Below are positions 1,034 through 21,648 of a stretch of DNA of 64,000 bases, piece by piece. Position 1 is the first letter of the stretch, and each line of letters begins with the position of its first letter. Made by a program: the position numbers and the translations under genes. Where the stretch lies: contig NZ_JAAKZC010000001.1 in NCBI RefSeq assembly GCF_015230015.1, positions 1-64,000 on the forward strand. The letters are read 5' to 3'. The notes beneath the pieces were generated by a model that did not search any database, was not told where the DNA came from, and was given only the letters and a program-made list of their open reading frames with translations. Origin of the DNA: Campylobacter concisus. Its GTDB lineage: Bacteria > Campylobacterota > Campylobacteria > Campylobacterales > Campylobacteraceae.

Positions 1034-1051
1034 ATTGTACCAAAGTACAAT
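1034..1051. promoter_or_regulatory. Palindrome ATTGTAC-CAAA-GTACAAT upstream of the left-edge adhesin
   Basis: Perfect 7-base inverted repeat with a 4-base spacer, 63 bases before the ATG at 970. On the minus strand the second half-site contains TACAAT, which could serve as a -10 box, so a protein bound here would cover the promoter. The same element precedes four other adhesin genes in the window. Confidence 0.7.
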
Positions 1052-5882: not shown

Positions 5883-7289
5883 TTAAAGATCGACGTGAAT
5901 GTCTTCTTTTATATCTATATAGACTGTGCCTTGACGATCACTACCATCTGCTAAGTGCGTATTATAGGCACTTTCATATCTATGGTAGCCATTTTCTGCT
6001 CCGCTAGTTTCACTAAAACCATTAAGTTTTACGGTCCCATGCGCTTCACTAAATTTAACTACATTAGAGCCATTGTCTAAAATGTCACTCAAATGAGCCA
6101 CATCATTGCCATTTAATGTCACATAAGCACCGCTCGTTACTTTTAATTCTTCAAAACCAGAGACCTTTGAGAAGTCGATATTATTATCAAGTACAAGCGT
6201 ATCATAGCCCTTGCCACCAAATATTTGAGTATTATTATCTATATCTGTTCTTGTCATAGTTAAACTAACTGTATCATCTCCGCCACCTAGATAAAATTTA
6301 GAATTTTTTATGATAGCTGATGTCACATTTAAAGTATCATTTTGATTATCTGAGAAGTAAAATTCGTTATTTTTACCATGAAATTCTGAGTCGTCTATAT
6401 GCATATTGACCTTGTTGTTTCTGCCGTCAAATTTAACGTCACCCATAAATTTTGGCCCAAGAAAATTCATATCAAAAAGCGGTGTGTGGTCTAAATTTGC
6501 GTGCGAGCCTTTTATATCTATCTCGCCGTCTCCACCGCACACTTTTATATTCATAGTGGTCTTTTCGCCGTCGTTTGCTTCGATAGTAGTGTGTCCGTTA
6601 AAGATAGTGTTGTCCATATTTAGCGTATCTACTTCGTTTGGATTTGTAAAGCTAGAAAGAGAAATTTTTGTATCACCAAAAAAGCCCACCCAGTCGGTAT
6701 TTATAGTGTCATTTCCTCCGCCAAGCCTTATATCTGCGCCATTTTTGATTTCACATCTTTGGATATCTATGACATCGTTATCTAGACCTGTATGAATGGC
6801 AGCATTTTCCATCGTCGCACCATAAATTTTTACGCTATCATCGCCGTCATTTGTGTATAAAAGCGTATGATCTTTTATGCCGACGTTGTTTCTTATCTCT
6901 ATCTCGTCGTTGCCAGCTCCAGCGTCAAATCTCAGCCCTCTAACCTCGATATTATCGTGAATTCTTAGCTTGTTGTCACCATCTCCTGCGTCTATCTTAG
7001 CATCATTTACGATAGATCTTGTCATATCGACTATATCGTTGCCATTGTCAAAACGCACATCATTTGCACTCGTGGTTGCGTCTGCGATGTTTAAAATTTG
7101 ATCCTGCGCTTTTGGCCTTGCATCTGCCACCCTTCGTCCGTATAGCTCAGCAAGAAAATTCTTGGGCTCAAGTATCTCAAGCGACTTTACCTCCTCTATG
7201 ATCCTCACGTGAGGGTCATTTTGCCCGCCATTTTGAATCACGCCACCACTTAAATTTAACCCCTCTTTGTCGGCTACTTCTACGCTCAT
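5883..7289 (-). CDS. Secreted repeat protein without retention module (468 aa)
   Basis: The protein begins MSVEVADKEGLNLSGG and lacks the 100-residue retention module and di-alanine site of its neighbours. Most of it (about 70-400) consists of repeats with GNDxxxI or GDDxxxI turns spaced roughly 20-35 residues apart, like the solenoids of the flanking adhesins. The end, YIDIKEDIHVDL, is nearly the same as the end of the 1478-residue protein, so it probably uses the same type I exporter. Without a retention module it should be released rather than held at the outer membrane; that is inference. It may also be a passenger module that lost its N-terminal part, although its own ATG and ribosome binding site look intact. 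No palindrome is seen upstream. Confidence 0.75.
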   Translation of the reverse strand: MSVEVADKEGLNLSGGVIQNGGQNDPHVRIIEEVKSLEILEPKNFLAELYGRRVADARPKAQDQILNIADATTSANDVRFDNGNDIVDMTRSIVNDAKIDAGDGDNKLRIHDNIEVRGLRFDAGAGNDEIEIRNNVGIKDHTLLYTNDGDDSVKIYGATMENAAIHTGLDNDVIDIQRCEIKNGADIRLGGGNDTINTDWVGFFGDTKISLSSFTNPNEVDTLNMDNTIFNGHTTIEANDGEKTTMNIKVCGGDGEIDIKGSHANLDHTPLFDMNFLGPKFMGDVKFDGRNNKVNMHIDDSEFHGKNNEFYFSDNQNDTLNVTSAIIKNSKFYLGGGDDTVSLTMTRTDIDNNTQIFGGKGYDTLVLDNNIDFSKVSGFEELKVTSGAYVTLNGNDVAHLSDILDNGSNVVKFSEAHGTVKLNGFSETSGAENGYHRYESAYNTHLADGSDRQGTVYIDIKEDIHVDL

Positions 7290-7462: not shown

Positions 7463-10400
7463 TTATGCCAACAACTCATTTACATTGACATCTTGTATAG
7501 TAAGCGTAAATGTCTGACCGCCTTCATTTACGTTATATATATGGTTTCCATTGCTATCTATTGTAGAAGCATTTGCTACTTCAGCTGAGCCTTCCGTAAA
7601 TGAGCCAACAAATTTATCACCTTTTACGATTAGCGATGTTGCACCTTCGCCACCGACATTTTTTATGAAGTTTGCGATATCTGAAGCATTGAAAAATGTA
7701 AAATGCTCATTAGCGTCTGACATATCAAGCACCTCAAAACCACTTATCTTGCCAGCATTTGTCGTATTAAATGATGCGTCATGAACTTTTAGCGTATCTA
7801 TGCCGTCGCCTCCATTTATAGCAGTGCCATTTAGGCTTACATCCTTGCCAAGATCGACTAAGTCGCTACCGTCACCGCCTGAAAGGTAGGTGTTGGTTAG
7901 CGTCACGTTATCAGCTATATTGATAGTGTCGTTGCCTTTGCCTGAGTTGATGTTTGATGTATCGTAGTCATGCGCAGCTTCGCCTGCAGCTGGACTTAAA
8001 TTTACACTTGATGTGCCAGTTAGATCAGCGTTGATATTTATCGTATCGTCTCCACCTTGAGTGAAAATTTTAACATCAGTATTATCATGAGTGCCAGCTC
8101 CGATAGTCACGCTATCGCCGTCATCTGCGGTATTTATGGTGACCCTTCTAAGCTCAGCGTTATCGATAGTCACGGTTTTTACGCCAGCATTTCCAACGCC
8201 TGCACCCTCTATGTTTGTATCAACTAGACCGGTAGCCTTTGCGACATTTAGCATTACGTTGCCATTTTCAAGCATGATGTTTGAATCCACCATAGAGACA
8301 TCACCATCTACATTTACATGGTCATCTCCGCCATTTGTGTAGATGATAGCCTTGTCAAATGAGCTATTTCCAGAGACGTTAATAGTGTCATTTCCGCCGC
8401 CTGCACCGATATATGTGCTAAATCCATCATTTGAGATCATGGTAACATCTTTTAAATTTATCACATCATCGCCATATCCAGTCTCAATGGCAGCGTTGTT
8501 AAATTTAGCGCCAGTAACATCTATGCTGTCTCTATCGTCACTTACTCCAGCATCAGCTGAGCTAGTGTTTATCTTAGTGTTTGAAATTTCAGCGCCTCTT
8601 TCGATAGTTAATGTATCGCGACCTTTGCCCATCTCTATGTAGTTTGAGTGAATTCCAGCTTGGTTAGCTACTGGATTTGCTACGTGAGCTGGTGAGCTTA
8701 TAGGGTCATTATGTGTGGCGCTATTATTTTTTATTTCAGTGCTGCCTTTGATAGTTAGGCTATCATTGCCCTCGCCTGTGTAGATATCCATAACATCTGC
8801 TTTGGTATCTTGAAGTACGATCTTATCATTGCCATTGCCACTTTTTATTTCAGAGTTATATATACCTGCACTGATGAAATTTAGCATATCACCTGTATCT
8901 GAATCGCCTGTATCGATATCAACTCTGCTGATACTTGCATCAGTAACATTTATAGTGTCATCGCCCTCACCTGTTTTTATAAAGCTATCAGTTCTGCTTC
9001 CTGCATACTCTGTCTCGTCAGTTGTTCCGTTATTAGTAACATAAGCATACATATCGCTTTTAATATTTACAGTGTCATTATCAGCACCAGTATCTATTTT
9101 GGTATTTTTTATAAGCTGATGATTATCGCTTTTTTCGATATTTACAGTATCGTTGCCACTTCCTGTTTTAAACAAGACATTGTCTAAAATCGTACTGCTA
9201 AGGCTTGGACCAGAATCATCTTTTATAGTAAATACATCATTGCCATCGTGGCTTGTAAATCTTGTATCTGTTATAACAGTTCCATTTATATTGAGTGTAT
9301 CTTGATTTTTCTCTCCACCAGCGTTTCCAAGGTCTATCCTAGTACTTTCTACTACAGCATCTTTTCCGGTATTAAACACATCGTCGCCATCGCCCATTTT
9401 TATAACATCATTGGCATTTTCTTTTAGATCATATAACCCACTTGAAAAATAGACTTCCTCTTTGATAGTTATAGTATCATCACCATCTTTTGTGTCTATG
9501 ATAGTTTTCATGGTGTTGCCATTGTCTGGGTCAGAATTTACAAGAGCAGGGTTTAAGCCCTCTGTAGATGCATCTATATTTTCTGTGATATTTATATTGT
9601 CATCATTATCAATGATCTTGCCCTCAGCCTCGCCAGATGTGATAGCAGCGTTGTTTGTAGTTACGCTAAGAGTTACGCCCTCTTTATAAACGCCGTAGTC
9701 TTTTATACCAGGAGCGATATTTGCGCCTAGATCCTCGCTGCTTGCGCCCTCGTTTTGGTTGCCAGCTGTTTGACCGTAGTCATCTATCACTTGCACTCTA
9801 ACCTTTACATTTGCGATATCGCTTGGTGCCACACCACTTATCGTGCCGCCATTTTGTATCGCAGTCCAGCTATGTCCGCCATCAAGTGAATACTCCATAG
9901 CGTTTGAGTAGTCTCTGCCTGCACTTGCACCACTCAAATTTAGCGTTAGATCAGTAGGTGTAGTTGAGCTTGTAGCAGCCGATAGGCCTAGATTATAGAC
10001 TAGATACTCGTTTGGAGTTGCCTCTCTTGCTTCGCCGTTACCATCAAGTGATACACTTAGTGCTACAGGTGTAGCTGGAGTTGCTGGAGTAATAGGGCTA
10101 ACTGGAGCAACTGGAGTTACTGGTGCAACAGGGGTTGTTGGATTTGTTGGGTTTGCTGGGTTTTGCGGTGCAACACTATCGCCTTCGCCATTGTCGTTAT
10201 TATCAGCATAACCGCCGATTGGGCTATTAAAAGAGTCAAAAGCTCTGTTTGCATCGGTTAAATTTCTAAAATTTTCATTGATATTTGCGTAGTGGCCGCC
10301 CTCAGCAAAGCTAGCAGCGCCTAGACTTATGCCATCTCCGCCAGCTCCACCAGCTGCTGCGTTACCACCAGCTGCTGTCTCTTCAAGATCTGTGATGTTT

Positions 10401-10693
10401 GCACCATTTAAAAGAGCATTTTGAAGTGCTGCGATCTCTGGGTTAGCACTTTGTGCGTTTGCCGCCTCTTTTGGATCAAGCGAGATAGTATCTTCGCCTA
10501 CTATCGAGACTTCCTTGCCATCATTTGCAGCGATGACTACCTTCGCATCAGCCGAAGTTGTCTTTATACTCTCGCCCTCATACAAGCTGTCGCCAACTTT
10601 TAAAATTCTCTCATTTCCACTTTTATCGACTGCGATCACTTCAGTTTGACCTGAAATTGATTTTATACTTCCTAGTTTTGCTGCCATATTCAT
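7463..10693 (-). CDS. LapA-like adhesin with GxGxD solenoid repeats (1076 aa)
   Basis: Retention module at residues 1-75 (KLGSIKSISG, DKSGNERILKVGDSLYEGE), then LEETAAGG with the di-alanine at 107-108, close to the position known for Pseudomonas LapA. The segment GISLGAASFAEGGHYANI and a PVTPVAP linker (about 175-210) lead to one Calx-beta/Ig-like domain (AGRDYSNAMEYSLDGGHSW, ending GKIIDNDDN). From about 370 to 1000 there are many repeats of the form TGxGxDTVNI with spacings near 20-35 residues, longer than classic RTX nonapeptides. The tail is FTLTIQDVNVNELLA. The start is supported by the paralogues, a ribosome binding site and a perfect palindrome 50 bases upstream. Calcium binding and adhesion are inferred. 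Confidence 0.87.
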   Translation of the reverse strand: MNMAAKLGSIKSISGQTEVIAVDKSGNERILKVGDSLYEGESIKTTSADAKVVIAANDGKEVSIVGEDTISLDPKEAANAQSANPEIAALQNALLNGANITDLEETAAGGNAAAGGAGGDGISLGAASFAEGGHYANINENFRNLTDANRAFDSFNSPIGGYADNNDNGEGDSVAPQNPANPTNPTTPVAPVTPVAPVSPITPATPATPVALSVSLDGNGEAREATPNEYLVYNLGLSAATSSTTPTDLTLNLSGASAGRDYSNAMEYSLDGGHSWTAIQNGGTISGVAPSDIANVKVRVQVIDDYGQTAGNQNEGASSEDLGANIAPGIKDYGVYKEGVTLSVTTNNAAITSGEAEGKIIDNDDNINITENIDASTEGLNPALVNSDPDNGNTMKTIIDTKDGDDTITIKEEVYFSSGLYDLKENANDVIKMGDGDDVFNTGKDAVVESTRIDLGNAGGEKNQDTLNINGTVITDTRFTSHDGNDVFTIKDDSGPSLSSTILDNVLFKTGSGNDTVNIEKSDNHQLIKNTKIDTGADNDTVNIKSDMYAYVTNNGTTDETEYAGSRTDSFIKTGEGDDTINVTDASISRVDIDTGDSDTGDMLNFISAGIYNSEIKSGNGNDKIVLQDTKADVMDIYTGEGNDSLTIKGSTEIKNNSATHNDPISSPAHVANPVANQAGIHSNYIEMGKGRDTLTIERGAEISNTKINTSSADAGVSDDRDSIDVTGAKFNNAAIETGYGDDVINLKDVTMISNDGFSTYIGAGGGNDTINVSGNSSFDKAIIYTNGGDDHVNVDGDVSMVDSNIMLENGNVMLNVAKATGLVDTNIEGAGVGNAGVKTVTIDNAELRRVTINTADDGDSVTIGAGTHDNTDVKIFTQGGDDTININADLTGTSSVNLSPAAGEAAHDYDTSNINSGKGNDTINIADNVTLTNTYLSGGDGSDLVDLGKDVSLNGTAINGGDGIDTLKVHDASFNTTNAGKISGFEVLDMSDANEHFTFFNASDIANFIKNVGGEGATSLIVKGDKFVGSFTEGSAEVANASTIDSNGNHIYNVNEGGQTFTLTIQDVNVNELLA

Positions 10694-10742: not shown

Positions 10743-10760
10743 ATTGTACCTAGGTACAAT
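10743..10760. promoter_or_regulatory. Palindrome ATTGTAC-CTAG-GTACAAT upstream of the 1076-residue adhesin
   Basis: A perfect 18-base palindrome including the spacer, 50 bases before the start codon at 10693. On the minus strand it continues as TATACA, as in several of the other copies. Confidence 0.72.
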
Positions 10761-13523: not shown

Positions 13524-13550
13524 AAATTTGAGCCAAGAGGCTCAAAATTT
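13524..13550 (-). terminator. Rho-independent terminator of the 170-residue mini-adhesin gene
   Basis: TTGAGCC-AAGA-GGCTCAA with A/T flanks directly after the stop codon. The small gene therefore has its own terminator like the full-length adhesins. Confidence 0.75.
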
Positions 13551-14061
13551 ATGAAAGTTTATTTAGATCGTTGTCGATCTCGATATATATCGTAGTTGCG
13601 TCAAAATTTGCATGCTCGTAAGAGTTATCTACTTTTGGCTCGTTTGAGTCAGTTAAAACGTCATCATTTGCGCTATGCTTGTCCGCTAAATTTTCACTGC
13701 TCTCGTGACTAATAGAGCTTTTTGCAAACATATCTTCTACTTTTTCATTCATCTGATCAAGTATCTCAGCGTAGTTTTCTCCAAGAAGCGCTCTAAAAAG
13801 TGCGTCAGTATCGATGCTATTTTCAGCGCTAGTATCAGCACTTACCACACTACTATCAAGCCATATCGTGTCATATCCATTTAGTGATATATCGCTACCA
13901 TCCACTGCAGTGATAGTCACGCTCGCACTTTGACTCTCACCTTTTATACTCTCTCCGATATAAACCTCATCATCTACGTTTAGAACTCTTACACGGTCGT
14001 TTTTATCTATCGCTATAACATCAGATGTGACGCTTTTTACCTTGCCGGCTACAGCTGCCAT
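13549..14061 (-). CDS. Mini-adhesin: retention module joined to an export tail (170 aa)
   Basis: Residues 1-75 follow the retention-module pattern of the neighbours (VAGKVKSVTSDVIAIDKNDR, VLNVDDEVYIGESIKG, VTITAVDGSDISL). The TAAG site and the GVSLGAASF segment are missing; instead an acidic linker (about 80-150) leads straight to TTIYIEIDNDLNKLS, which closely matches the tail TTIFIDVDNDINKQLV of the adjacent 1402-residue adhesin. There is no passenger domain. It has its own palindrome-bearing promoter and terminator and no internal stops, so it looks like a maintained gene rather than debris. It could be a deletion product, or a small protein occupying or regulating the shared exporter; the latter is speculation. 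Confidence 0.8.
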   Translation of the reverse strand: MAAVAGKVKSVTSDVIAIDKNDRVRVLNVDDEVYIGESIKGESQSASVTITAVDGSDISLNGYDTIWLDSSVVSADTSAENSIDTDALFRALLGENYAEILDQMNEKVEDMFAKSSISHESSENLADKHSANDDVLTDSNEPKVDNSYEHANFDATTIYIEIDNDLNKLS

Positions 14062-14117
14062 CTTTATTCCTTATTTTATTTTTTTGTTTATTCTAGTGTT
14101 TTTTATTAAATTTGTAT

Positions 14118-14135
14118 ATTGTACTTTGGTACAAA
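14118..14135. promoter_or_regulatory. Palindrome ATTGTAC-TTTG-GTACAAA upstream of the mini-adhesin
   Basis: The inverted repeat matches the other adhesin copies except for the last base of one half-site. It lies 57 bases before the ATG at 14061. Confidence 0.68.
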
Positions 14136-14188: not shown

Positions 14189-14211
14189 TTTGGGCTAAAA
14201 AGCCCAAATTT
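14189..14211 (-). terminator. Rho-independent terminator of the 1402-residue adhesin gene
   Basis: TTTGGGCT-AAAA-AGCCCAAA, with an A/T-rich extension of the stem and a T-rich run after it on the minus strand, just beyond the stop codon. Confidence 0.8.
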
Positions 14212-17200
14212 TATACAAGTTGTTTGTTTATATCGTTATCGACATCTATGAAAATAGTTGTCGGAGTGGCTGAGCTTGTTTGACCTTCATATCTTGTATA
14301 TCCAGCTTCGACACCACTTTGATCTCTAGCCTCAGTAAATCCTTTTAATGAAACGCTATCTTTGCTGTCGCCACTTATTTTTAAGATAGTACTTACATCA
14401 TCAGTGATGCTAAATACATTATCCGCTTTTAAATTTAGTAGCTTAACAGTTTGGTTGTCATTGCCATGCTCATCCATGCCAAGCTGGATCTCTTCAAAAT
14501 TCTTGATCGCATTATTTAAAGATTTATTGTCTATCTTATCAAAGTCGATAGTGCCATCCTTTGCCATTGGACGCATGATAAGCGTATCTGTACCCTCTCC
14601 GCCATCTAGACTTTGAGATAGAGCTGCTCTTGGATTATCAAAAGTAAATACAACCTTATCATTGCCAGCGCCAGCATTTACTAGATCGCCTTTGTTCATG
14701 CCATCATAGCCACTTCTGCCAGCGTCGATGTAGTCGTTACCACTTCCTGTGGTTATGACGTCGTTGTTGTCGCCAGTGATGATTACATTGTTGCCATTGC
14801 CTGTGCGAATTTCATTTTCACCGCGTCCTGCGTTGATCACGTTGTTTCCATCTCCAACGGTTATGATATCGTTGCCCTCAGTCGTTGTGATAACGTTATC
14901 GTTGTTGTTTTCTGCAACTACTCTTGTATTTTTAGCGATATCAGAAACTTGCAAATAGACATCACTTGCTTTTACATCGCCGTTAAATACTGCTTCGAAA
15001 TTTCCATTGTCATCAAGTTTTACAGAATTTGCAGTTATGATGTGTCCATCAGCATCTCTTAAAGTGATACTATCTTTTAGAGCTATGCCTTTTACCGCCT
15101 CTTCAAAGTGTTGTTTTAGCGTGTAGCTTGCACCAACACCATTTTCACTTAAATTTCCACTCCATGTGGTTTTATTTGCCGCTGCGTCATAGCTTAAATG
15201 TGAGTTATTTATAGTTGCGGCTGTTGCATCGATAGTAAATTGAATAGAGTTGTAAAGCAGCTCATCTCCACCTTGATATTTACCATCGATAGAAATTTTA
15301 TAAACACCATCAGCCATCTTGCCATTGCCATCAAGTCTGTTGTTATAGCCTGTAAGCCTGTCATAGTGATCAGGTGTTACATTGCCTATCGGTTTTTCTA
15401 TCGCTTGAGACAATAGAACTTTTGAAACGCCTGTATCAACGTTAGTTGCTACAAATCTAACATCACCAGTGCCCCATGTTATGCCTCTACCGCTATTTAA
15501 AAACTCGCTTACAGTTTGATTATTGCTAGCATTACCAGCTGTTGCATCTTCTGGGATCACAGCTCTTAGGTATGGGATAGCGTCGTTTGAGACGATCCTT
15601 GAGCCATCAGCTCTAAAGCCACTCTCACTCATATCCATAGTACCCCACAACTTCTCAGCTGAGCGGTTATTTGCATTTGTAGTTGTGTCGTTGCCGTTTT
15701 CAAACTGCGTCATAGTTGGAACTAAAATTTCATTTACATGAGTATATTTTGTACCAGCTTTGTCAGTCATCTCAACTTCTATCTTATCGCCTAGCTTTAT
15801 CTTGTGATCGTACTCAAAGCTTAGCACACCATTAGTTGGCTTAGTAGTGCCAACAGAGATGATCTCGGTAGTTCCGTCTGCCTTGACCACTTTTATGCTC
15901 TCGATCTTATCGCCATCTTCGTAGTTTTTGAGGTTAAATTTAAGCGTATGGTGCAAGCCCTCGCTATCATTTTCGATGATCTTGATGTTTTCTATAGTAA
16001 CTGGAGTCTTATCAACTACAAATTCGCTAACTATCGTGCTCTTGTCGCCATTTGCAAAGATCGCAGTTGCTTTGATGTTATATTTGCCGTCATTTAGTTC
16101 ATTAGATGTGACTTCAAATTTACCATTTGCAAATTCACTTTGACTAAGCTCTTTTGTAAATACTTTATGTCCATCTTTGTCAAGCACAGTGATGACCGCT
16201 TTAGTTGCACTGCTATCTATGCTGCCTGTAAATGTCGGAGTCTTATCGCTTAGTACTGGTAGTGGCGCATTAGATGAAAATTTATCAGTTTGAGCGATGT
16301 CATCAGTTGTATATTTATAATATTTAGTTGCATCGTTTATACCTGTATTTGTATTTGCACTTACACTGCTTGCATCATCATCGGTCGCATCTATTAGGTC
16401 TGTAGCGACATTATTTAGTTTAGTTGATTTTGCCTCTGCCTCGTTGCCTACAAGGTCGCTAACTTTAGCTGTGTATGTCGCTTTTGTATCGCTTGTTTTA
16501 AACTCAACCTCGTATTTACCGTCTTTTACAACTGCTGTATGGCTCTCGCCGGTGCTTGATGTCACAGTTACGATCTGTCCATCTTCTACATTATCCACAG
16601 TTCCTGTGATCTTTTGAGTTACTTTATAGACATTTCTTGTTACTGTATCTACGTAACTGTCAAAGTCGGTTGAATTTAGTTTTATGCCACTTGCCTCTGA
16701 GCCAAGTATGCTCTCAGGTCCGCCATCTTTTGAAACTGTTAGTTTTAGCTTGCCCCAATAGATGTAGTTTGCATAGCTCATATCAAAGTCGTAGTATCCT
16801 GCTTTATCAACGTGTAAAGTTGTAACTGTAGCTCTATTTTCTGAGTGGATAGTGTCATAATCGACCATTGTAACGCCATCAACCTTAAATCTCACGCTAT
16901 CGTCAGTGCCTTTTGCGTCAAATTTATAGTCCCCTGGCTCAAGATACATAGTGCCTTTTAAATTTACCATCGCACCAGCTGTTGTGTTTTTGCCATTAGG
17001 AGCATCTCTTAGGGGATGAATATCGCTACCTTTTGCATTGTCGATGAAGTACTCAAGTGCTCTAAAATTTGGAGCTACCCACTCACTATTTGGAGTTACT
17101 ACATTACCATCAAGATCGATCTTGCCGACCATATTGTGAGCACCGTCAAGTCCTGAGACTGTTCCTGCGTCGTTATCAGTGTTATCCCTATCTCCACCTT

Positions 17201-18419
17201 TACCTTGTTGGAAATTTAGCTCTTTTGCTTTAAAGCTCGCCCAAGGTTTAGTATTATTTGTATAGTATTCTATAAAGTCATTTTGTTTCATATGATCATG
17301 AGCGTATGTTGTATTATTAAAAGCATAAGGTCTTAGCTCAGTGCCACTTACGCCTGGCTCATAGATGTGGTTAAACCAGAAATTTCCTTTTAGTCCCTCG
17401 CTCATCTCAGACTCTTTTACAAGACTCATCTCAGTTTCAACGTTTATAGTTATTTTTGCAACTGTATCAAGTACAAAGCTACCACTATCAGTTGCTGTTT
17501 GGCCATCTCTTCCTGTAGCTGTTATCTCTACTTTATAATCGCCATCATGGCTACCATTTACGCTTAACTCATCAGTTGTAAATTTAAATTTACCATCAGC
17601 ATAGTCGCTTGGATTTAGAGTTTTTGTAAAGACTTCGTGTCCGTCCTTGTTAAGCACGCTAACAACCGCTCTTACAGCAGCTGGATCTACTGTGCCGCTA
17701 ATAGTTGGAGTAGCGTCATTTGTGCGAGGTACGCTTGGTGCATCTAGGCTGTAGTCGCCTTTTATAGTGCCAAAATCATCAGTTAAAGTTTTGATATCAA
17801 CACTAATTGGAGGTATGACTGGTGAGACAGGAGTTACTGGAGTAGGTGGAGTGGACGGTGTAACTGGAGTAGGTGGAGTTACAGGTGTAGCTGGTGAGAC
17901 AGGAGTTAAATTGCCTGTATCATTGCCGTCATTGTAGCCACCGATTGAGTTCTCTGGAGTTTGAAAAGCCCTACTTGAATCAGGTAAATTTCTATAATCA
18001 TCAGTAATGTTTGAATAGTGTCCACCCTCAGCAAAGCTCGCTGCACCAAGACTAACGCCGTCTCCACCAGCGCCACCACCAGTATCTCCACCAGCTGCAG
18101 TCTCTTCAAGGTCTGTGATGTTTGCGCCATCAAGAAGTGCTTTTTGGATAGCGCTTACATCAGCTACACTATCGTCACCAAAGCTCTCATTGTGAGCTAC
18201 ACTCTTGTCTAAATTTAGGGTATCTTTTCCGATGATCGCAATGTCTTTGCCATCGTTTGCAGTTATGACTACTTTTGAGTCAATATCAGTTGTCTGTATA
18301 GTCTCACCAAGAAAAATTTCATCGCCTACTTTTAACACTCTTTGTGTGCCGTCCTTTGCAGTTGCGATTACAGTTGCGCCTTGTGAAATGCTTTTGATTA
18401 TACCAATCCTTGCTGCCAT
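14211..18419 (-). CDS. LapA-like RTX adhesin with PA14-like and Ig-like domains (1402 aa)
   Basis: Retention module at 1-75, LEETAAGG with the di-alanine at 108-109, GVSLGAASFAEGGHYSNI at about 121-137, and a PVTPPTPVTPSTP linker at about 170-205. An Ig-like domain follows at about 225-325 (TNDATPTISGTVDPAAV). At about 342-566 is a PA14-like domain starting GLKGNFWF and containing YLEPGDYKFDAKGTDDSVRF, whose adjacent Asp pair is the usual calcium/sugar site. More Ig-like domains follow, one with TVDNVEDGQIVTV and one with DKTPTFTGSIDSSATKAVI. True RTX nonapeptides (EGNDIITVGDGNNVI) lie at roughly 1165-1255, and the tail is TTIFIDVDNDINKQLV. PA14 domains in RTX adhesins often bind carbohydrates, so glycan binding is a reasonable inference. 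A palindrome variant lies upstream. Confidence 0.88.
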   Translation of the reverse strand: MAARIGIIKSISQGATVIATAKDGTQRVLKVGDEIFLGETIQTTDIDSKVVITANDGKDIAIIGKDTLNLDKSVAHNESFGDDSVADVSAIQKALLDGANITDLEETAAGGDTGGGAGGDGVSLGAASFAEGGHYSNITDDYRNLPDSSRAFQTPENSIGGYNDGNDTGNLTPVSPATPVTPPTPVTPSTPPTPVTPVSPVIPPISVDIKTLTDDFGTIKGDYSLDAPSVPRTNDATPTISGTVDPAAVRAVVSVLNKDGHEVFTKTLNPSDYADGKFKFTTDELSVNGSHDGDYKVEITATGRDGQTATDSGSFVLDTVAKITINVETEMSLVKESEMSEGLKGNFWFNHIYEPGVSGTELRPYAFNNTTYAHDHMKQNDFIEYYTNNTKPWASFKAKELNFQQGKGGDRDNTDNDAGTVSGLDGAHNMVGKIDLDGNVVTPNSEWVAPNFRALEYFIDNAKGSDIHPLRDAPNGKNTTAGAMVNLKGTMYLEPGDYKFDAKGTDDSVRFKVDGVTMVDYDTIHSENRATVTTLHVDKAGYYDFDMSYANYIYWGKLKLTVSKDGGPESILGSEASGIKLNSTDFDSYVDTVTRNVYKVTQKITGTVDNVEDGQIVTVTSSTGESHTAVVKDGKYEVEFKTSDTKATYTAKVSDLVGNEAEAKSTKLNNVATDLIDATDDDASSVSANTNTGINDATKYYKYTTDDIAQTDKFSSNAPLPVLSDKTPTFTGSIDSSATKAVITVLDKDGHKVFTKELSQSEFANGKFEVTSNELNDGKYNIKATAIFANGDKSTIVSEFVVDKTPVTIENIKIIENDSEGLHHTLKFNLKNYEDGDKIESIKVVKADGTTEIISVGTTKPTNGVLSFEYDHKIKLGDKIEVEMTDKAGTKYTHVNEILVPTMTQFENGNDTTTNANNRSAEKLWGTMDMSESGFRADGSRIVSNDAIPYLRAVIPEDATAGNASNNQTVSEFLNSGRGITWGTGDVRFVATNVDTGVSKVLLSQAIEKPIGNVTPDHYDRLTGYNNRLDGNGKMADGVYKISIDGKYQGGDELLYNSIQFTIDATAATINNSHLSYDAAANKTTWSGNLSENGVGASYTLKQHFEEAVKGIALKDSITLRDADGHIITANSVKLDDNGNFEAVFNGDVKASDVYLQVSDIAKNTRVVAENNNDNVITTTEGNDIITVGDGNNVINAGRGENEIRTGNGNNVIITGDNNDVITTGSGNDYIDAGRSGYDGMNKGDLVNAGAGNDKVVFTFDNPRAALSQSLDGGEGTDTLIMRPMAKDGTIDFDKIDNKSLNNAIKNFEEIQLGMDEHGNDNQTVKLLNLKADNVFSITDDVSTILKISGDSKDSVSLKGFTEARDQSGVEAGYTRYEGQTSSATPTTIFIDVDNDINKQLV
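17806..17910 (-). repeat. In-frame repeats coding for a TPVTP-type linker
   Basis: Units of the ggagtaggtgga type code for a Pro/Thr/Val-rich spacer between the retention module and the Ig-like domain. It differs from the PEPK linkers of the 1478-residue protein. Confidence 0.55.
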
Positions 18420-18475: not shown

Positions 18476-18493
18476 ATTGTACTATGGTACTAA
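18476..18493. promoter_or_regulatory. Imperfect palindrome ATTGTAC-TATG-GTACTAA upstream of the 1402-residue adhesin
   Basis: The left half-site and both inner GTAC cores are intact; the outer part of the right half has diverged. The distance to the ATG at 18419 is 56 bases, as in the other copies, so position and core are conserved even where the flanks are not. Confidence 0.6.
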
Positions 18494-18551: not shown

Positions 18552-21500
18552 TTAGGAAATTATTTCGTCTTTTACTTCGATAGTAAATGTATTGGTGCCA
18601 GAAGTTGCCGTAAATGTTGTATATCCACCGCTTGACACACCTGGGCCAAAATCACTACTCATATGTACATGATCGCCACTTTCGCCATCTATCCTAAGAG
18701 TGCGGTTAGCGCCGTTGCCATTTGTGATATTTAGCACGTCATTTATAGTTAAATTTAGCGTTACGTTGTTTTCACTGCCACCAAGAGTAATTTTCTCAAA
18801 GCCAGCTACCTTGCTAAAGTCGATATTTCCAGCAAGATCTAGCGTATCAGTGCCTGCACCACCTTGGATAACGATACCCTTATGCTCTTTATGCCCAATA
18901 CCACCAGAAGTAGTCCAGCCATCTGCATTTATCTCTGCGTCCTTGCCGATATGTATTATGTCGTTGCCATTACCTAGATCAATAGTACTTGAGCCATCCC
19001 AGTATGTACCACCAGCATGTTTTAAACTACCATTTAAATTTACAACGTCATCGCCATCGCCCATTTTTATGGTAGTGCTTTTTAGCTCAGCGCCTTTGTC
19101 GATACTTATCGTATCGTCGCCATCACCCATGTTTATGCTAGAGAACTGAACGCTTTTATATCCATATTTTTCATGTGTTCCGCCAAATTTAGTTTCGCTA
19201 CCGATATTTATGGTGTCATTGCCAGCGTCAGTATTTATAGTGATGGCACCAGCTACGTTTTTGCCTTCAAAATTTATAGTGTCATTGCCACCTCTTGTAT
19301 CTATATCGGCACTACTTGAATCCTCAAGGTTATTTAAGATGTTATTACCTTTAAAATTTATCGTATCATTACTTTCGCCATAGCTAGTTACCCACACACG
19401 AGTTTTAGCTGTTAAATTTGATATATCAGCTGTAAAATCAACACCTGTTTTATTACTAAAGCCCGCTTGACCTATGCTTATGCCGTCAGCTATAACGTGA
19501 GCTGAGCTAAATGATCCGGTTTCATAGTGGCTATTGCCATCGTTATTGCCCTTTACTTCAAGTAGATCTTTTGCATAAGCTGTAACGCTCTCACCTTTGT
19601 TATTATCTAGTTTTAGGCTTTGATATCCTAACACTGCATCTTGTGACTCTCTATTTAAATTTACATTTGTTAGCGTAGAGTTTGATATCTCCATAGTATT
19701 TACATCTCTTGCCTCAGAGTATCTATCGCTAGTATCTACCCAAGCATCTGTCATAGTTATATTGTTTGCTTTAAAGGTATTGCTACCAGTATCCATCAGG
19801 ATATTTACTCTTTCTATCCTCACACCATCTTTTACATTTACCACATCATCGCCGTCACCTGTATGTATCTGGTTATCGTTGTACCAGCTATTGTGTATGC
19901 TAGGGTCTATAACTTTAAATGTTTCTTTACCAAGGATATTTGCATTGATATTTAAAGTGTTGTTTCCTGCTTCATCATGAGCGCTATTGCTTGAGCTAGG
20001 TGTGTATGCGCCAAGGTTGATGTTGGCTTTGAATATAGTAAGATCAGCATTGATATTTACTACGTCATCGCCTCTACCAAGGTTTATAGTAGTGCTATTA
20101 TAATGTCCAAGAACGCCGCCTACGCTTGCTGTGTTTTTAGTACCGCTTATAGTGACCTCTTTATCAAAATTTACTACATCGTTGCCAGAGCCAGTATCTA
20201 AGTGCAAATTCTCTAAATTTGCCTTTATGCTGACCGTATCATCGCCATCATTTGTATTTAAATTGGTATGGTTTGCGATATTTCCTTTGATATCTTTATT
20301 TAGCTCGATGTTGTCGTCGTTGTCTATGATCTTGCCTTCAGCCATATTTGCATTAGTTGTTGGTAGCAAATATCTGCTGCTTGGCGTAACGCTTAGTTTT
20401 ACACTCTCTTTAAACACAGCAAAGTTATCAACCATATCAGTTTTTTGTACGTTGTCGATAGTCATACCTTGAGGGCCAGTATTGTCACCTTCGTTTTGGT
20501 TGTGATGTAGCGGGCCTTTTGTAGTGTCTTGTCCGTCGTCGTCAAGCACTTTTATCCTTACTTGCACTTTTGAGATATCCTCTACGTTTACGCCTGGTAT
20601 TGTGTTGTTGGTATTTAGAGTTACCCAACTTCCAGCAGCGCCGTTATTTAGCGAGTACTCGATCAAATTTGCGTAATCCTCTCCTCTAGTGCCGCCTATG
20701 AAATTTAGAGCAAGGTCTGTTGTCTCGCCACTTGGGCTTACCGGAGTGCCTGATAGACCTAGTTTATAAACAAGATAGTGTCCGCCCTCGCCGTTTGCTC
20801 CAGCGCCGCTCTCTCTCACTTCGCTATTAGCTGGGTCCATACTGGTAGTCACCTCAACAGCACCTGGATGTGGTGGAATGACTGGTGGGTTTGCAGGTGA
20901 AGGGGTGCCTGGGGTTACGGTGACGCCAGGAGTACTTGGTGTGCTCGGAGTTGGTGGTGTTGGTGGTGTGCTTGGAGTACTCGGCGTGACAGGTGTAACT
21001 GGTGTACTCGGAGTTGGTGGTGTGCTTGGGGTACTTGGAGTGACAGGTGTAACTGGCGAGATAGGAGTTGTCGTATCTGCATCTGTACCTGCATCGTTAT
21101 AACCACCTATTGAGTTTTCTGGTGTTTGAAAAGCTCTATTTGCGTCGGTTAAATTTCTATAATTTTCATTGATATTTGAGTAGTGGCCGCCCTCGGCAAA
21201 GCTAGCAGCACCTAAACTTACACCATCTCCAGTAGCGTTGCCACCGCCTTGGTTGCCACCTGCTGCAGTCTCTTCAAGATCTGTGATGTTTGCGCCATTT
21301 AGCAAGGCTTTTTGGATAGACGCGATCTCTGGGTTGTCACTAAGTGCGTTTGCCTCTTTGTCTAGGCTCAGGCTTTCGCCATTTTGCAAGCTCACCTCTT
21401 TGCCGTCATTTGCTGCGATCACTGCTTTTGCAGAGCCATTAGCCTTTATAGTTTCGCCTTCAAAAATGCTATCACCCACCTTTAAGACTCTTTCGTTGCC

Positions 21501-21563
21501 ACTTTTATCAACAGCTACGATTTCACCGCCTAGGATGTTTTTGATAACGCCTAACTTTTGCAT
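18552..21563 (-). CDS. LapA-like adhesin with GxGxD solenoid repeats (1003 aa)
   Basis: Retention module at residues 1-68 (KLGVIKNILGGEIVAVDKSG, VLKVGDSIFEGETIKANG), LEETAAGG with the di-alanine at 100-101, then GVSLGAASFAEGGHYSNI and a long TPSTPPTPSTP linker (about 165-220). A Calx-beta/Ig-like domain (GEDYANLIEYSLNNG, closing GKIIDNDDN) leads into solenoid repeats such as TNDGDDTVSI, TGSGNDVVNF and MGDGDDTISI up to about residue 900. The tail is FTIEVKDEIIS. DNA near 21.1 kb is very similar to the matching part of the 1402-residue gene near 17.95 kb, so the two can recombine. A perfect palindrome lies 68 bases upstream. It is the first gene of the array after the two-component system. Confidence 0.86.
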   Translation of the reverse strand: MQKLGVIKNILGGEIVAVDKSGNERVLKVGDSIFEGETIKANGSAKAVIAANDGKEVSLQNGESLSLDKEANALSDNPEIASIQKALLNGANITDLEETAAGGNQGGGNATGDGVSLGAASFAEGGHYSNINENYRNLTDANRAFQTPENSIGGYNDAGTDADTTTPISPVTPVTPSTPSTPPTPSTPVTPVTPSTPSTPPTPPTPSTPSTPGVTVTPGTPSPANPPVIPPHPGAVEVTTSMDPANSEVRESGAGANGEGGHYLVYKLGLSGTPVSPSGETTDLALNFIGGTRGEDYANLIEYSLNNGAAGSWVTLNTNNTIPGVNVEDISKVQVRIKVLDDDGQDTTKGPLHHNQNEGDNTGPQGMTIDNVQKTDMVDNFAVFKESVKLSVTPSSRYLLPTTNANMAEGKIIDNDDNIELNKDIKGNIANHTNLNTNDGDDTVSIKANLENLHLDTGSGNDVVNFDKEVTISGTKNTASVGGVLGHYNSTTINLGRGDDVVNINADLTIFKANINLGAYTPSSSNSAHDEAGNNTLNINANILGKETFKVIDPSIHNSWYNDNQIHTGDGDDVVNVKDGVRIERVNILMDTGSNTFKANNITMTDAWVDTSDRYSEARDVNTMEISNSTLTNVNLNRESQDAVLGYQSLKLDNNKGESVTAYAKDLLEVKGNNDGNSHYETGSFSSAHVIADGISIGQAGFSNKTGVDFTADISNLTAKTRVWVTSYGESNDTINFKGNNILNNLEDSSSADIDTRGGNDTINFEGKNVAGAITINTDAGNDTINIGSETKFGGTHEKYGYKSVQFSSINMGDGDDTISIDKGAELKSTTIKMGDGDDVVNLNGSLKHAGGTYWDGSSTIDLGNGNDIIHIGKDAEINADGWTTSGGIGHKEHKGIVIQGGAGTDTLDLAGNIDFSKVAGFEKITLGGSENNVTLNLTINDVLNITNGNGANRTLRIDGESGDHVHMSSDFGPGVSSGGYTTFTATSGTNTFTIEVKDEIIS
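20880..21070 (-). repeat. In-frame minisatellite coding for a TPSTPPTP linker
   Basis: Degenerate units such as ggtgtgcttggagta are repeated many times and code for Pro/Ser/Thr/Val residues. Unit number can change in frame. Confidence 0.6.
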
Positions 21564-21630: not shown

Positions 21631-21648
21631 ATTGTACTTTGGTACAAT
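21631..21648. promoter_or_regulatory. Palindrome ATTGTAC-TTTG-GTACAAT upstream of the 1003-residue adhesin
   Basis: A perfect 7-base inverted repeat, 67 bases before the ATG at 21563. On the minus strand it runs into ATATAAC, so a -10 box overlaps or directly follows the right half-site. Confidence 0.72.

Follow-up and report, generated by a model that had tools for sequence, protein, structure and literature searches.

The gene at 13549..14061 (minus strand, coding sequence with stop codon) of the window, the whole 64,000-nucleotide stretch of Campylobacter concisus DNA that was analysed, encodes a 170-residue protein with a retention module and no passenger (ORF list, profiles and orthologues), hereafter the mini protein. 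It has a type I secretion system (T1SS) tail, has lost the LapG site, is conserved under selection, shares its upstream site with adhesin genes, and is found in a genome with one close exporter. By its domain, tail and genome context, the mini protein is probably a LapA-type retention-module T1SS substrate, and we infer from these features that it would be co-expressed with the adhesins, exported, retained, resistant to LapG and regulatory in effect. Tentatively, and as the first among several readings, it may be a functional, conserved and non-adhesive substrate of the single LapA-type exporter, which would occupy the pore permanently and limit or seal the channels.

Domain architecture and the missing LapG site

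The retention beta-domain was assigned to residues 1-72 (13846..14061, minus strand). In the profile search, residues 5-79 matched NF033682 (retention_LapA; E 2.6e-5) with 24.4 bits, which falls short of the curated cut-off of 50 bits; thus, the retention-module call rests on the fold and the orthologue alignment. The AF2 model, built from an alignment of 29 sequences (minis and adhesin N-termini), gave block pLDDT values of 90-96 for the beta-domain. Its only PDB match with E <0.001 was 5IX9, a Marinomonas anchoring domain (Foldseek, E 6e-5; TM 0.88 on the target, rmsd 1.3 A, 74 columns). Residues 85-116 (13714..13809, minus strand) were modelled as a continuous helix with moderate confidence (pLDDT about 70), at the place where the adhesins have, by alignment and by an adhesin model, the targeting helix and then TAAG. 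Amphipathicity of the helix, tested as the sign of a docking face, was not significant for the mini protein of the window (1325 of 5000 shuffles equally high). The linker, residues 117-153 (13603..13713, minus strand), is disordered (pLDDT <50), fast-evolving, and 8 residues shorter than in the clade-mates (170 vs 178 aa). The T1SS tail, residues 154-170 (13552..13602, minus strand), scored 13.6 bits with a profile built from the C-termini of 13 adhesins, the best score among 5000 shuffles of the same tail being 9.1; within the window, only adhesin-type ORFs scored above it. No hydrophobic stretch of a Sec signal was read at the N-terminus, and the mini protein has no Pfam domain above the cut-off and no repeats or ligand-binding passenger. 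The retention module, the adhesin-like export tail and the missing passenger described in the earlier note were thus all found.

The window also contains a 468-aa ORF (5883-7289, minus strand) with a T1SS tail (24.5 bits with the adhesin-tail profile) and with neither retention module nor palindrome. This is the converse of the mini architecture, and judged by its sequence such a substrate should be freely secreted.

Four retention-module adhesins with TAAG were assigned in the window, all on the minus strand: the 1402-aa neighbour of the mini protein (14211..18419; TAAG at residue 107), a 1003-aa (18552..21563) and a 1076-aa adhesin (7463..10693), each by profile and alignment, and the start of a further one that runs off the contig (1..970; alignment). 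The AAG of the LapG site was invariant in 14 of 14 aligned adhesin N-termini, most of which read LEETAAGG, and TAAG stands at the aligned position in the adhesins of this genome that have the same palindrome as the mini gene (see below). The patterns used in the cleavage-site script were TAAG and AAG. No [TAPS]AAG was found in the mini protein or the 22 aligned orthologous sequences, as the earlier note had claimed for the former; there was no di-alanine after residue 3 in the mini protein of the window and no AA dipeptide past residue 20 in any distinct mini of the same family (family 1). The mini protein retains the ALxxALL helix segment and then continues as the helix ILDQMNEKVEDMF with no di-alanine, and the glycine that is invariant after ALLx in the adhesins is shifted; in the adhesin model, two short helices are followed here by a disordered stretch (low confidence in this region). 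In published assays, LapG and DvhG cut at the di-alanine and no longer cleave once it is replaced by RR (PMC6890996, PMC13090378), so that release of the mini protein by LapG is not expected. Elsewhere in the genome of the window, three adhesins (1596, 1964 and 677 aa; L056:2587-15780, C2:83-96 kb) have retention-like N-termini without the AAG site or the palindrome, and they are possibly released by another route or by the second LapG.

Conservation, upstream palindrome and related proteins

In 28 of the 48 genus genomes, IlvD is at least 96% identical to that of the window. An intact single-copy mini gene with no internal stop was found in 27 of these, which are all the C. concisus-complex genomes with a Lap system; the remaining one has neither LapG nor the LuxR-type regulator, and no retention module was detected in it. 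The lengths fall by clade into 170-178 aa and 189-190 aa (two clades). The Nei-Gojobori dN/dS was 0.14 and 0.17 within the clades and 0.25 between them, with near-identical duplicates included and between-clade synonymous sites near saturation. By segment, it was 0.07-0.12 for the retention domain, 0.03-0.13 for the tail and 0.29-0.50 for the linker; between clades, the helix gave 0.31 as compared with 0.12 for the retention domain. Conserved versions in other strains and purifying selection, for which the earlier note proposed to look, are thus both present. The mini gene precedes thiD in all neighbourhoods read. In clade B and L033, its immediate predecessor is a two-component system, from which large adhesins separate it in clade A; the mini gene is therefore the stable element, and the giant neighbours are the variable ones. 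In the 15 other genus genomes with retention modules (14 with a LapG match), no mini was detected by searches with families 1 and 2, by which unrelated minis could be missed; thus, a Lap system can do without a mini. In the plasmid collection, no match was found.

An operator-like palindrome, TTGTACCAAAGTACAA (minus strand), lies at 14119..14134, 57 nt upstream of the mini ATG (genome pattern scan). It is followed by a promoter-like TATACA-17-TAGAAT (14090..14118, minus strand; consensus scan only), and the mini gene is followed by a terminator-like hairpin with an 8-bp stem that is conserved in the orthologues (13527..13546, minus strand; hairpin scan and orthologue comparison). The palindrome and the terminator reported in the earlier note are thus present, although the palindrome is not the mini gene's own: it is common to the mini gene and five Lap-type adhesin genes of this genome. 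The pattern TTGTAC-N4-GTACAA had five exact copies in the 2.01-Mb genome, each followed after 50-68 nt by the ATG of a retention-module gene, and the reversed control pattern had none, which is far beyond chance. In the window, the copies of the adhesins were located by the same scan at 21632..21647 (1003-aa adhesin), 10744..10759 (1076-aa adhesin) and 1035..1050 (contig-edge adhesin); a copy with one mismatch precedes the 1402-aa adhesin (18477..18492), and two further one-mismatch sites occur elsewhere in the genome. Upstream of the aligned minis the arms are invariant and the 4-nt spacer varies. The mini gene would accordingly be placed by its upstream sequence in an adhesin regulon, and would be co-expressed with it.

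The palindrome was found in 42 of the 48 genus genomes. Of the 34 exact genus sites retrieved, 28 lie before an intact retention-module ORF and one before an ORF of this kind with a frameshift; the other five occupy the intergenic position at ilvD in clade B. There (L151, L154 and L165, near position 1501), ilvD still has the palindrome on its upstream side, and a very short ORF, of about 40 aa in L151 and L154, stands in the place of the 1076-aa adhesin. The frameshifted gene (L166, near 1590-1660, of G065) appears to have its frameshift close to the start, within a run of A, which is perhaps phase variation of an adhesin; the mini gene is intact there. Retention-module genes from a different family of the order (L085, L086 and L089) likewise have the palindrome in front of them, so that the site appears older than Campylobacter. 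It offers a direct handle on the switching-on of Campylobacter adhesin genes.

The complete lap locus was found on contig 8, with genes for a TolC-like protein, LapG, LapD (LapD_MoxY_N-GGDEF-EAL), ABC, HlyD, DUF5416, a LuxR-type regulator and a second LapG; only one close LapB-type ABC exporter was found in the genome. The two LapG paralogues (L036:8067-8732 and 15435-16058) flank the LapD, ABC and HlyD genes, and the DUF5416 gene (L036:14292-14786) has the HlyD gene on one side and the LuxR-type regulator on the other; clade B has one LapG match only. The copy number of LapG was considered as the partner of the mini protein and ruled out, because the mini protein occurs with one LapG in clade B and with two in clade A. 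The LuxR-type regulator of the lap locus occurs in 46 of the 48 genomes and is missing from the two without LapG, retention modules and palindrome. This co-occurrence makes it the strongest candidate for the owner of the palindrome, and it probably runs the regulon. The response regulator of the two-component system that adjoins the mini gene may also be the owner, against which stands the fact that the palindrome and the lap genes go together with the LuxR-type gene.

Further minis were found in the order. A second family (219-231 aa) occurs in four other species, beside plsY in 4 of 4, and carries the palindrome of the mini gene (0-1 mismatch, 57-61 nt). No AAG site was found in these family-2 minis, and a gap-free alignment of two of these places VTTE or MTTE opposite TAAG. 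A third mini (191 aa; L109:5056-5628) comes from a different family of the order; it has a 1495-aa adhesin as its neighbour and groups with the adhesins of its own family (FastTree only). Families 1 and 2 were separated in the tree; one clade was not rejected by the AU test (p 0.24, 72 columns). Most of the short retention-like proteins fetched in the order-wide search were excluded as minis; they look FecR-like, with a Sec-like signal and often an OmpA-family neighbour. In the literature collection searched, nothing relevant was found on retention proteins that lack a passenger or on retention modules of Campylobacter.

Possible occupation of the export channel and alternative roles

The mini protein would be switched on together with the giant adhesins via TTGTAC-N4-GTACAA, and its C-terminal tail would lead it through the Lap exporter. 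The N-terminal beta-domain would fold in the periplasm and be unable to pass, and the chain beyond the helix would remain inside the LapE-like pore. In the LapA model, the adhesin is anchored in LapE (PMC6890996), and a protein with the anchor and the tail and with no release site is expected from this model to stay threaded. With a helix in place of its site, LapG could not release the mini protein, which as a permanent occupier of the pore would limit or seal the channels available to the adhesins; in this sense we infer the tuning of the number of free channels that the earlier note proposed. About 55 residues follow the helix, roughly 180 A if extended. A TolC-type channel is about 140 A long, so that the segment could span it by this geometry. 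Selection is strongest on the retention and tail ends and weakest on the linker, which fits a threaded plug. A permanently blocked exporter would be costly, and this counts against the reading. Occupation of the pore is most likely; a decoy of LapG fits nearly as well and is the main rival.

As a pseudosubstrate, the exported mini protein would show its retention domain and targeting helix to LapG with no scissile bond, hold the protease and protect the co-expressed adhesins, as a second brake beside LapD. We consider this role rather unlikely, though a serious candidate. Docking of both the targeting helix and the retention domain on the protease has been shown to make cleavage more efficient (PMC13090378); the mini protein keeps the adhesin-like ALxxALL segment, a part of the targeting helix whose retention a decoy explains as well as a plug does, the VTTE or MTTE of the two family-2 minis aligns with TAAG, and the shared operator would scale the decoy to its substrate. 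Against it, the helix diverges more between clades than the retention domain, the adhesin-invariant glycine is shifted, and a decoy in the periplasm could be exported by Sec and would not need the strongly conserved secretion tail.

The C-terminal end could also protrude as a short surface-exposed tether or accessory factor in adhesin assembly or spacing and not in pore control. The linker is long enough for the channel span and the tail is conserved, but only a few residues would be outside and the linker is poorly conserved and disordered, which makes this role improbable. Still less probable is a cytoplasmic competitor, never fully exported, that sits in the ABC exporter by mimicking a substrate: a complete secretion tail without passenger would suit it, but the conserved retention fold, the most constrained long segment, would be needless. 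That the mini gene is a decaying internal-deletion product of an adhesin, the sporadic single-strain case named in the earlier note, is very improbable, because, although deletion of a passenger would leave this architecture and the window copy lacks 8 linker residues, there are 27 intact orthologues with no internal stop under purifying selection, the palindrome and terminator are conserved, the gene persists without neighbouring adhesins, and four other species have a further family of this kind behind the same palindrome. An old deletion is a possible origin.

Comparison with known systems

In known Lap systems, adhesion is controlled at the retained adhesin, which is either cleaved or spared. 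With a conserved substrate that has the anchor and the export signal but neither passenger nor cleavage site, regulation would extend to how far the export channel, or LapG, is occupied. LapG-resistant, passenger-less plug or decoy proteins could be a recurrent control layer of LapA-type systems in Campylobacterales, under the same operator as the adhesins that they limit or protect, a generalisation that we put forward with somewhat less than even confidence. The mini protein is also a small natural tool for testing retention with no giant adhesin attached.

The short FecR-like secreted proteins of Campylobacterales resemble the mini protein in length (141-257 aa) and in a weak similarity to the retention profile; in contrast to it, they have an N-terminal Sec-like signal, often an OmpA-family neighbour, and no T1SS tail. 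With the LapA-type RTX adhesins (LapA, CraA, FrhA, DvhA and MpIBP), the mini protein shares the retention beta-domain, the following helix and the C-terminal type I secretion tail, and the genomes share a Lap-type T1SS with LapG and LapD. It differs from them in having no [T/A/P]AAG site, no repeats, and no ligand-binding or Ca-binding passenger, and in its length (170-190 aa, as compared with hundreds to thousands). The anchoring domain of MpIBP (PDB 5IX9) has the same fold; it anchors a giant ice-binding adhesin, whereas the mini protein anchors nothing recognisable.
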